Part shown: positions 29,109 to 52,424 of the stretch, piece by piece | Numbering within the stretch: the stretch's first letter is position 1 | How the letters are laid out: each line of letters starts with the position of its first letter | Source of the DNA: Bacteroidia bacterium | GTDB taxonomy: Bacteria; Bacteroidota; Bacteroidia; Chitinophagales; UBA2359 | NCBI GenBank assembly: GCA_030427245.1 | Contig: JAUHXA010000004.1 | Span: forward strand, 124,001 to 188,000 | Reading direction: 5' to 3' | Length of the DNA stretch: 64,000 nt | Made by a program: the position numbers and the translations under genes | Notes under the pieces: generated by a model | The model's database searches: none | What the model was told of the DNA's origin: nothing | Seen by the model: only the letters and a program-made list of their open reading frames with translations

Positions 29109-30239
29109 ATGAAAAAAAACAAGGAATATATACGAATCGGCGATAAAGTTCGCCTAATCTTTACAGACGAAGTAGGCATAGTTGTGGAAGCTTTTGACGG
29201 AGAAACAATGATGGTCGAATTGGATGGAGAAGAAATTCCTGTATTTATCGAACACCTTGAAAAAGTAGTGGAGAATGATTCAGAAGCTTCAATATCTTCC
29301 AAGCCCAATCCCAATCTTCAACAACACTTCAAAACAGGTAAGAAAAAACCCTTAAAAAAGGTGGAGCTTCAAAAAAAGAAAATGGAGGCTGCTCAAAAAA
29401 TCAATGCCAGCGGACTCCAAACCAGTCTAGACAAAGCCCCTGATAGAGGTATAAGAGTTGCCCTCCAACCCTTTCATGACGACAATGGAGATATCACTTA
29501 CTTTTTGATTCACTTGATAAATGATTCGGGTTATGCACTTCAATTTGAATACGAAATGTCAAGCATTGAAGCCATAGAATTTGTATTGAAGAAAAAAATT
29601 GGCGGTCGTGAAACGATGATTCTTAATTCGATGAACTACGATATGCTCAATGAGCAGCCTTTTCTGCAATTTAAATTTGAGCTACTCAAAAAAAATAACA
29701 CCAAGCTTTTACAGAAGTTTGAAAAAATAGTGAAGCCCAAGGCTAAAATGCTCCGTCGTCCGCCTGAGCCACTCGACAAGATTGAAGGCAAAGCTTATCT
29801 TTATCCAATTTGTCATCAGTTCCCCACTGCTCCTAATGTAGAAAAATCTGTCAACCCTGAAAAAAAATATTTGGAAAAATTAAAATTTCATACTTTTGAG
29901 GACAATGTAATAGAGCAAGATTTTTCTGAAAAAATATACATCAATGCTGAGGAAAGAATTATAGATTTGCACATTGAGAAACTTATCAAGTCTTATCGGC
30001 ATTTACCTAAAAGAAACATTCTGTCTATCCAATTGAAGGAATGTCAAAAGAGTATTGAAGAAGCCATCAAAAGAAAGGAAAAAAACATGGTGGTGATTCA
30101 TGGCATTGGAAAAGGTAAGTTGAAGCAAGAAGTTTTTAAGCTACTCATGAACTACAAGGAAATCACCAACTTCAAAAATGAATACAATCATCGGTTTGGT
30201 TTTGGAGCCACAGAAATTTTCTTTGAGTACGAAGAATAA
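29109..30239 (+). CDS. DUF2027 and Smr domain protein
   Basis: 376 residues. An N-terminal small beta domain (about 8-55, GDKVRLIFTDEVGIVVE) leads to a lysine-rich linker, the DUF2027 domain (about 110-210), and a C-terminal Smr domain (about 285-372) with IDLHIEKLI and HGIGKGKLKQEVFKLL, the HGxGxG motif of Smr nucleases. This architecture is characteristic of Bacteroidota. Smr domains cleave RNA near stalled ribosomes or DNA; the substrate here is unknown. Note that a second Smr protein, MutS2, is encoded 2.3 kb upstream. A hairpin element begins 3 bp after the stop codon. Confidence 0.88.
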   Translation: MKKNKEYIRIGDKVRLIFTDEVGIVVEAFDGETMMVELDGEEIPVFIEHLEKVVENDSEASISSKPNPNLQQHFKTGKKKPLKKVELQKKKMEAAQKINASGLQTSLDKAPDRGIRVALQPFHDDNGDITYFLIHLINDSGYALQFEYEMSSIEAIEFVLKKKIGGRETMILNSMNYDMLNEQPFLQFKFELLKKNNTKLLQKFEKIVKPKAKMLRRPPEPLDKIEGKAYLYPICHQFPTAPNVEKSVNPEKKYLEKLKFHTFEDNVIEQDFSEKIYINAEERIIDLHIEKLIKSYRHLPKRNILSIQLKECQKSIEEAIKRKEKNMVVIHGIGKGKLKQEVFKLLMNYKEITNFKNEYNHRFGFGATEIFFEYEE

Positions 30240-30241
30240 TG

Positions 30242-30317
30242 ATTGAACTGCTATATGGCTATACTGTTGTATTGCTTACCCACACGAAGCAATACAACCA
30301 TAAAACAATTCAACAAT
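30242..30317. repeat. Hairpin-forming intergenic element, copy B
   Basis: A 12-bp perfect stem (gttgtattgctt/aagcaatacaac, 30266-30277 and 30287-30298) sits inside a longer imperfect hairpin. Its 5' part (30242-30269) matches 52354-52381 at 24 of 28 bases, all four differences being T/C. It starts right after the DUF2027 stop and merges into the 5' flank of rnpB, and may serve as the terminator of the mazG operon. Confidence 0.7.
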
Positions 30318-30751
30318 ATAAAAAAACTACAAACCGTTCTATCGCTTTGCCGCCTTATAGAGGGCAGGTTAAGAGGAAAGTCCGGGCAACAAAGAGCAAC
30401 CACACCATCTAACTGATGGACTCCAACTCGAAAGTATTGGAGATAGCCAGTGTCGCAGAAAATAACCGTCCCGAGTACTTGGGATAAGGGTGAAAAAGTA
30501 GGGTAAGAGCCTACGGACAGATGTGGAAATTCATCTGTGGGGCAAACCTTGTGGGTTGAAAGACCAAATACACCAGCATGTTCAAGCTTTTTGGAGCTTG
30601 AACTGAGGGCTGCTCGTCCAAAGCTGGGGGGTAGGTCGTTGGAGGCAGCGGGTGACTGCTGTCCTAGATAAATGATAGAAAACTGGATGCGTTCAGTTAC
30701 AGAACTCGGCTTATAGGTTTGTAGTTTTTTTTATATTGTTGAATTGTGTTA
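30301..30751. repeat. Inverted repeat enclosing rnpB
   Basis: The arm 30305-30335 (31 nt) is the reverse complement of 30716-30747 (32 nt) with one bulged base in the A/T run, and pairing continues with one mismatch to 30301 and 30751. This extends helix P1 of the RNase P RNA from a normal dozen base pairs to more than 30. Confidence 0.88.
30321..30730 (+). ncRNA. rnpB: RNase P RNA, bacterial class A
   Basis: Catalytic RNA of RNase P, which matures tRNA 5' ends. The universal 5' core gaggaaagtccgggc is at about 30379-30393. The middle carries the cgtcccgagtacttgg and gggtgaaaaagtagggtaag elements. The 3' core reads agataaatgata with acagaactcggcttatag (about 30699-30716), pairing back with the 5' end. 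P1 arms are actacaaacc and ggtttgtagt. Ends are estimated from P1; the T-run after P1 (30725-30732) suggests P1 doubles as terminator. It lies between the DUF2027/Smr gene and a sigma-54 regulator gene. Confidence 0.96.
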
Positions 30752-30778
30752 CTGTTAAATTGTTATATTGATGAATAA

Positions 30779-30838
30779 CTAAATGGTTTTTAGTTAGCAA
30801 TATAGCCAATAGGTGATATAATGATAAAAACCATTTAG
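30779..30838. repeat. 14-bp stem hairpin downstream of rnpB
   Basis: ctaaatggttttta (30779-30792) and taaaaaccatttag (30825-30838) are perfect reverse complements around a 32-nt loop. It is too AT-rich for a standard terminator. It lies 48 bp past the RNase P RNA and about 120 bp before the next gene, and is similar in style to the element at 30242-30317. Confidence 0.7.
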
Positions 30839-30958
30839 CTATTCAAACCATTTTCTCCTTATTCAAGTTGAATTTGTAGAAATTGGCTTATTTATTGCAG
30901 TTATTTCCTAAATTTACAGATATTTTTTAACCCATTCGTTCAAAAACAAACAGAGAAG

Positions 30959-32332
30959 GTGGCTAGTACAAAAGCAAAGATTTTATTAATTGATGATGAT
31001 AGAAGTATTCGGCGAACACTTAAAGAAATTCTCGAATATGAAGACTATAAAGTAGAAGAGGCAAAAGACGGCATCGAAGGTATGGTGAAAATAAAAACCA
31101 ACAAATATGATGTGGTCTTTCTCGACATTAAAATGCCCAAAATGGATGGCATGGAAGTCCTCGAAAATGCCCAAAAAATACGTCCCGACCTACCCATTAT
31201 TATGATTTCGGGACATGGTACAATGGAAACTGCAGTAGAAGCCGTCAAAAAAGGTGCTTTTGACTTTATTGCGAAGCCGCCAGATTTGAACCGCCTCCTC
31301 ATCACCGTACGAAATGCTCTAGATAAATCCAGTCTGATCACGGAAACCAAAGTTTTGAGGCGTAAAGTCACCAAAGTACGGGACATTGTAGGTGAATCAG
31401 GAGTAATTTCTAAAATTAAGGAGACCATTGACCGAGTCGCTCCTACTGATGCCAGAATTCTCATTACTGGACCAAATGGTACGGGTAAAGAATTGGTAGC
31501 TCGTTGGATACACGAAAAAAGCCACCGCAATAAAGGTCCTTTTGTGGAGGTGAATTGTGCTGCAATTCCTGCTGAACTTATCGAAAGTGAACTGTTTGGA
31601 CACGAAAAAGGAGCATTTACTTCTGCCCACAAACAGCGTATTGGCAAGTTTGAACAGGCAAATGGTGGTACGCTTTTCTTAGATGAGATTGGAGACATGA
31701 GTATTTCGGCACAAGCCAAAGTACTGAGAGCCTTACAGGAAAATCGAATTACTCGAGTAGGTGGAGATAAAGACATTCAAGTAGATGTTCGGATTCTTTC
31801 TGCCACGAATAAAAATTTATTGAAGGAAGTAGAGGACACCAAATTCCGATTGGATCTTTACCACCGCCTTAATGTCATTCCGATTCGTGTGCCGTCTTTG
31901 AACAATCGTCGAGAAGACATCCCTATGCTCACCAATGTGTTTATCAATGATATTTGTAGTGACTACAATATTCCTCCAAAACCCATCACACAAGAAGCTA
32001 TTCAATTGTTGAAGAGTCAAAACTGGTCGGGGAATGTGCGTGAACTACGCAATGTAGTGGAACGTCTCATTATTTTGAGTGAAGAAAAAATAACAGGTGC
32101 GGATGTGCAAATGTTTGTTTCTCCGGCTGGAGCAAATGTCACCAGTAACGTCAGCTTGTACGACCGATTCGACAGCCTGCAAGACTTCAAGGAATACACC
32201 GAAAAAATGTTTATTCAACACAAATTGGGCGTAAATGGTTGGAATGTCAAAAAGACTTCCGAAATATTGGGCATCCAACGAAGTCACCTCCACAACAAAA
32301 TCGTTAAGTACGAATTGAAGCGAGATGAATAA
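30959..32332 (+). CDS. Sigma-54-dependent response regulator (NtrC family)
   Basis: 457 residues. Receiver domain (1-120) with acidic pocket IDDD and phospho-acceptor Asp56 in VVFLDIKMPKMDG. AAA+ domain (about 143-375) with Walker A GPNGTGKE (171-178), Walker B FLDEIGDM, and the sigma-54 contact loop GAFTSA (218-223; canonical GAFTGA). C-terminal Fis-type HTH (about 420-457, KKTSEILGIQRSHLHNKI). The start is GTG, just before ASTKAKILLIDDD. No kinase gene adjoins it. It activates transcription from sigma-54 promoters in response to phosphorylation; targets unknown. Confidence 0.94.
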   Translation: MASTKAKILLIDDDRSIRRTLKEILEYEDYKVEEAKDGIEGMVKIKTNKYDVVFLDIKMPKMDGMEVLENAQKIRPDLPIIMISGHGTMETAVEAVKKGAFDFIAKPPDLNRLLITVRNALDKSSLITETKVLRRKVTKVRDIVGESGVISKIKETIDRVAPTDARILITGPNGTGKELVARWIHEKSHRNKGPFVEVNCAAIPAELIESELFGHEKGAFTSAHKQRIGKFEQANGGTLFLDEIGDMSISAQAKVLRALQENRITRVGGDKDIQVDVRILSATNKNLLKEVEDTKFRLDLYHRLNVIPIRVPSLNNRREDIPMLTNVFINDICSDYNIPPKPITQEAIQLLKSQNWSGNVRELRNVVERLIILSEEKITGADVQMFVSPAGANVTSNVSLYDRFDSLQDFKEYTEKMFIQHKLGVNGWNVKKTSEILGIQRSHLHNKIVKYELKRDE

Positions 32333-52353: not shown

Positions 52354-52408
52354 ATTGAATTGTTATATGGTTATATTGTTGAACGGTTGTATGCTCAACA
52401 ATATAGCC
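52354..52408. repeat. Hairpin-forming intergenic element, copy A
   Basis: Arms ggttatattgttga (52369-52382) and tcaacaatatagcc (52395-52408) pair with one T-G wobble around a 12-nt loop. The 28-nt 5' part matches copy B at 30242-30269 apart from four T/C changes. Like copy B it begins within a few bp of a stop codon (third skp gene). Confidence 0.75.
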
Positions 52409-52424
52409 ATTCAACCATAATCCT

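Follow-up and report, generated by a model that had tools for sequence, protein, structure and literature searches.

The window, by which we mean the whole stretch of 64,000 nucleotides that was analysed, carries an rnpB gene between a gene encoding an Smr-domain protein (29109-30239) and a gene whose product combines response-regulator and sigma-54 activator domains (30959-32332). The RNA matches the Rfam model of class A RNase P RNA (RF00010) at 30326-30729 on the forward strand (cmscan, 236.2 bits, E 1.5e-75), and the coverage of model positions 1-367 with a score of 236.2 bits against a gathering cut-off of 100 places it in class A. No second RF00010 match was found across the 7.58-Mb genome. 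The gap between the end of the Smr gene and the Rfam start of rnpB measures 86 nt and is mostly made of array sequence, that is, of tandem copies of a degenerate octamer. The features discussed below are the following (+, forward strand; -, reverse strand).

30236-30275 (-): antisense octamer array, located at the Smr stop codon, with strict units at 30244-30275
30289-30320 (+): sense octamer array of four strict units, pointing at rnpB
30305-30320 (+): outer left arm, formed by the two units of the sense array nearest to rnpB (ACAATTCA ACAATATA)
30326-30729 (+): rnpB, class A RNase P RNA (Rfam model span, cmscan RF00010)
30327-30335 (+): 5' strand of P1 proper, CTACAAACC, forming 9 bp with 30716-30724 at -10.9 kcal/mol (Rfam alignment)
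30716-30724 (+): 3' strand of P1 proper, GGTTTGTAG (Rfam alignment and fold)
30725-30732 (+): T8 tract right after P1, pairing with the A7 at 30320-30326 with one bulge (sequence)
30732-30747 (-): outer right arm, the same two units as the left arm, at the rnpB end of the antisense array
30732-30787 (-): antisense octamer array after rnpB, degenerate past its first two units
30772-30845 (strand not assigned): downstream intergenic hairpin with 21-nt arms (30772-30792 and 30825-30845), 95% complementary (sequence and fold)
52356-52421: further divergent octamer array in the window

The long closing helix of rnpB

The stretch 30305-30335 (ACAATTCAACAATATAAAAAAACTACAAACC) pairs with 30716-30747 (GGTTTGTAGTTTTTTTTATATTGTTGAATTGT) over 31 bp with one bulged U, which comes from the T8 facing the A7, and beyond this helix one mismatch is followed by three further pairs. 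The original prediction, an RNase P RNA with a P1 extended to more than 30 bp and with one further mismatch past the paired flanks, is thus borne out by the RF00010 match and by the pairing itself. The closing helix is composite: the ordinary P1 of 9 bp is prolonged by an A/U-tract step and then by 16 bp formed between two copies of the octamer array.

This helix is present in the predicted minimum free energy structure of rnpB with its flanks, and in the fold of 30240-30880 the pairs of P1 and 15 pairs of the outer arms reach probabilities of 0.93-1.0. The predicted duplex energy amounts to -36.8 kcal/mol for the 31 bp versus -10.9 kcal/mol for the 9-bp P1. The same fold predicts an 11-bp hairpin just upstream (30267-30277 with 30287-30297) that is compatible with the 31-bp helix; its left strand overlaps the antisense array bordering the Smr gene, and the fold of 30240-30320 has a z of -4.59. 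The 31-bp helix is predicted to form if transcription runs through both arms.

Octamer arrays and gene ends

The arm word CAATTCAACAATNTA (15 bases, at most one mismatch) has 82 matches in the genome versus 2 for its reversed control, and a pattern of three tandem units of RCMRTWHA has 207 overlapping matches versus 0. Pure chance in random sequence was rejected on these two counts as a source of the arms. The octamer is degenerate, with 33 strict variants among 253 units. Three-unit matches to RCMRTWHA occur in 9 of 60 genomes including this one: 207 are found here and 195 in a genome of the same family (G002), while the seven remaining genomes have 1-13 each, partly simple tandem repeats. 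With the stricter unit RCMATWHA, 42 of 396 genomes of the class have at least one match, and the present genome comes first with 163, the next one having 69.

The layout of the arrays relative to genes was analysed in 650 kb, made up of a 464-kb sample (the 64-kb window plus twenty 20-kb stretches taken on contigs with a known array match) and of further stretches picked because they bear arrays; ORFs were called by a simple script with ATG starts only, so that start positions are approximate. Among the 72 arrays of these 650 kb, 31 lie in sense orientation before a start, 32 in antisense orientation after a stop and 7 inside ORFs, and 2 are undecided. Whether an array is labelled start or stop depends on the strand of the gene ahead, and the informative measure is the distance: no more than 15 nt separate the front end of the array from the gene boundary in 48 of 63 cases (22 of 31 starts and 26 of 32 stops), against 2 of 62 for the back end. 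Two of the long front-end distances stem from rnpB not being an ORF: they are those of its own two arrays. Furthermore, neighbouring arrays less than 150 nt apart are divergent in 21 of 22 pairs, and in such a gap TTG-type words occupy the left and CAA-type words the right, each reaching the neighbouring gene end. Since arrays point outward, toward gene ends, those on either side of rnpB are mutually inverted. Few gaps contain a strict array (8 of the 265 measuring at least 20 nt in the 464-kb sample), and none of the 313 protein genes of that sample has arrays in both neighbouring gaps, which makes the double flank at rnpB itself unusual. As to gap folding, a z below -2 was obtained for 3 of 6 array gaps and for 46 of 141 array-free gaps, numbers too small for a comparison.

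Our search of the open-access literature returned no description of these octamer arrays, the nearest system being the TAACTGA intergenic direct repeats, which are short-word arrays lying in gaps, mostly a few nt from the start codon, with one Bacteroidetes set reversed directly after the stop codon and a patchy distribution over Beggiatoaceae, Cyanobacteria and five Bacteroidetes (MacGregor 2015, PMC4679880). The octamer arrays resemble them in being intergenic and close to start codons (31 precede a start, 22 at no more than 15 nt) but differ by the word, an invariant heptamer there and a degenerate octamer here (33 strict variants in 253 units), and by the layout, as the octamer arrays form divergent pairs and are just as frequent against stop codons as against start codons. 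REP and other intergenic palindromes are dispersed, extragenic and capable of forming hairpins. The octamer arrays share these three traits; however, they have no fixed palindrome of 20-40 bp and consist instead of runs of degenerate octamers, variable in length and delimited by the adjacent genes.

A scan of named genomes for arrays gave at least 115 stretches, and all 115 listed ones were analysed (80 + 35). Among the matches listed, arrays that lie outside ORFs and have a gene ahead face a stop in 84 cases and a start in 77, and at most 15 nt separate the boundary from the front end in 89 of 161 and from the back end in 8 of 145; a further 18 arrays are located within ORFs and another 7 are undecided. 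Neighbouring pairs, again among the matches listed, are divergent in 34 cases and otherwise arranged in 8, the last 35 stretches alone contributing 6 and 4. The hosts of the matches listed include Hymenobacter, Pontibacter, Pedobacter, Adhaeribacter, Saprospiraceae and Microscilla, together with Ignavibacteriae, several Patescibacteria and one Alteromonadaceae genome. In one genus (g71), 3 of 7 genomes (L312, L314 and L317) have in common the ending of the upstream protein and the gene downstream of the gap, which presumably encodes a GlcNAc-deacetylase-like protein; L313, L315 and L318, with another upstream sequence, and L316, where no start was found, were left out of this comparison. The three gaps, of 73, 71 and 61 nt, fold well (z of -5.90, -5.62 and -3.42), and by eye one is built of the octamer RCMRTWHA and two use other short words. 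The words of this gap seem to have been rewritten while a hairpin of similar size persists in the three species.

P1 length, promoters and T runs at related rnpB loci

A search for rnpB in the order gave a match in 53 of 60 genomes, none of which belongs to the same genus as the genome under study, and 50 of the 53 loci were analysed (G020, G040 and G049 were left out). To these were added the loci of 17 of the 18 array-bearing genomes of the class, the match in G388 being fragmentary. The length of P1 was taken by a strict outward walk from its inner end, which measured 65 of the 67 loci, L290 and L292 yielding no P1 by this rule. This rule stops early at L045 (15 bp strict versus 26 bp lenient); the lenient rule was discarded because it bridged gaps too freely, giving 62 bp at the window locus.

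Compared with class A RNase P RNA, whose whole model is matched here (236.2 bits), the window locus differs in that P1 can be drawn to 31 bp through the flanking repeat arms, the median being 10 bp over the 65 loci. It is the longest of all, followed by loci with 26, 25, 24, 21 and 20 bp. P1 reaches at least 20 bp in 6 of the 50 loci, window locus included, and four other families show P1 helices of 20-26 bp without arrays: f13 (L028, 26 bp), f21 (L011, 25 bp), f19 (L041, 24 bp, and L039, 20 bp) and f6 (L034, 21 bp). Extra searches within families found rnpB in 4 of 4 and 5 of 6 genomes, and by eye the long P1 is present in only some members of f19 and f13. In the family of the window genome, P1 measures 6-17 bp at the 12 other rnpB loci and reaches 20 bp at none, so that a long P1 conserved in the family is rejected. 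The idea that the extension is specific to rnpB therefore finds no support: the short P1 of these relatives is the outcome that the original prediction itself gave as a refutation, and each outer arm is a copy of the dispersed octamer array. The long helix, built as it is from repeat arms, does not count among the conserved features of RNase P.

Strict octamer arrays are absent within 200 nt of rnpB at all 66 other loci, a few of which have shorter flanks. Among these, none of the 17 other array-bearing genomes has an array at this distance from its rnpB, and arrays thus do not settle beside rnpB as a rule. In the array-rich genome G002 of the same family, the rnpB search returned only a 79-base match of 23.2 bits, below the family cut-off. 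In the genome G039 (L011), a heptamer-like run of GTGTCTT words lies directly upstream of rnpB, another word family in a similar place. Within the open-access literature on RNase P P1, processing and boxA, we found no rnpB with a comparable repeat-built helix.

The sequences surrounding P1 were compared over the same loci. At 37 of 50 loci, no more than 20 nt separate the first residue of the P1 3' strand from the beginning of a run of at least five T, and the T8 tract after P1 is therefore the usual arrangement; at the rnpB loci of the order, these runs look as if P1 itself were the terminator stem. The T8 tract at 30725-30732 is a possible termination tail. A scan for an intrinsic terminator, that is, a G+C-rich hairpin with a loop of 3-8 nt followed by a U tract, found none at the site, the loop of P1 being the whole RNA, and a short-loop terminator at rnpB was rejected on this ground. 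On the 5' side, the strict motif TAnnTTTG, which we take to be the Bacteroidota promoter element, is found at -45 to +4 of the rnpB start at 37 of 67 loci versus 1.65 expected from shuffles; it is absent at the window rnpB and at 8 of the 12 other same-family loci. In two genomes of this family, G015 and G010 (L012 and L013), the stop codon of an Smr-type gene lies 7 nt before P1, a spacing that leaves no separate promoter gap and contrasts with the 86 nt, mostly array, before the window rnpB; a scripted search for an Smr-type gene end upstream of rnpB recovered 9 of 50 loci, these two not being among them.

Words such as GTTCTTTAAA, which we take to be boxA-like, were observed in the rnpB leader at 11 of 71 loci versus 0.9 in simple shuffles (L021, L022, L039, L041, L043, L046, L278 with a weak match, L285, L295, L296 and L300), these matches not being independent, as L021/L022 are congeners and so are L039/L041/L295/L296; the offset at L285 is odd. 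At L039 and L041 the word is located inside the long P1 arm. A role of these words in antitermination is a guess.

Origin of the outer helix

The 31-bp helix is rare by the standard of ordinary flanks and less remarkable by that of the genome's own arrays. Random pairings of upstream and downstream flanks in the genome share an exact match of at least 15 nt in 3 of 5983 cases, and the longest match between flanks of the same gene is 13 nt among 209 genes (464 kb). In this 464-kb test a sense array lies upstream of 1 gene and an antisense array downstream of 4 (1 and 2, respectively, in the opposite orientation), and the four possible pairings of array-bearing flanks share just 8-9 nt. Among unrelated pairs of upstream and downstream arrays, 34 of 916 have at least 16 nt in common; within the last 24 nt beside the gene, at least 15 nt are shared in 9 of 916 and at least 16 nt in 6 of 916. 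For the arms to match exactly, in the register of P1, is an additional event of 1-4%.

The outer half of the long helix is made of a dispersed gene-end repeat, and we therefore consider that it is most likely a by-product of genome architecture rather than a special part of RNase P, with a probability of about 0.6. Octamer arrays occupy both rnpB gaps, the left one pointing at the 5' end of the gene and the right one beginning inverted at its 3' end, and the two arms are thus the same type of word standing face to face, in register with P1. The 16 bp come from two exactly matching units, which are bridged to P1 where the left array, A-rich at its end, faces the T8 tract. In this scenario the arm match would have arisen without selection, the mature RNase P RNA would probably keep the ordinary P1 alone, and most rnpB transcripts would terminate in or close to the T8 tract. 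It is nonetheless unusual for two arrays to meet at rnpB and to match over two units, which leaves room for a later use of the stalk.

Such a use is at the heart of a rather unlikely alternative, in which the outer helix would act as a processing stalk of the precursor, cut by an RNase III-type enzyme before the ends are trimmed to the ordinary P1, much as in rRNA precursors; the arms may even then derive from the arrays and have been co-opted. RNase III-type enzymes need about 20 bp or more, and the helix, at 31 bp, is long and predicted to be stable. A P1 of at least 20 bp at 6 of 50 loci, window locus included, points in the same direction, as does the presence of arrays on both sides of rnpB versus 0 of 313 sampled protein genes. 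Moreover, the strict promoter motif found at 37 of 67 rnpB loci is missing from the upstream gap, so that transcription may reach rnpB by read-through of the Smr gene, in which case 5' processing would be needed. This line of reasoning meets a difficulty in the same family, where 0 of 12 loci have a P1 of at least 20 bp and where 8 of 12 also lack the strict motif and yet manage without a long helix; in addition, the T8 tract sits inside the helix, and many transcripts may stop before the right arm is made.

The original prediction had also envisaged a terminator or a stabilising clamp; in such a reading P1 and T8, with or without the outer helix, would close the RNA and stop transcription. 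The T8 tract right after P1 fits this idea, in line with the T runs of at least five residues near the P1 3' strand at 37 of 50 loci, and the A7 facing the T8 may recall two-way terminators; the outer 16 bp, however, lie past T8, where they cannot aid termination, and the scan limited to loops of 3-8 nt found nothing at the site, which makes this explanation improbable. Lastly, a local inverted duplication or a random coincidence involving no repeat family would by itself account for the exact 16-nt match, but it is hardly credible given the 82 occurrences of the arm word in the genome, the 207 three-unit matches versus 0 in the control and the further array units that continue from both arms.

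An outer helix that is a by-product of the arrays tempers the claim of a selected 30-bp clamp on RNase P RNA. More tentatively, divergent arrays bounded by genes might represent a widespread, unnamed intergenic hairpin that persists, along with its fit between gene ends, while its words are rewritten between related species; a structured RNA gene placed between two such gaps, as rnpB is here, would thereby gain a closing stalk that could be co-opted for processing. The arrays themselves would matter more than the helix, as a degenerate octamer directed toward the ends of genes both in Bacteroidota and in phyla far from them. Dispersed gene-end repeats can in this way mimic, or seed, a new RNA helix.
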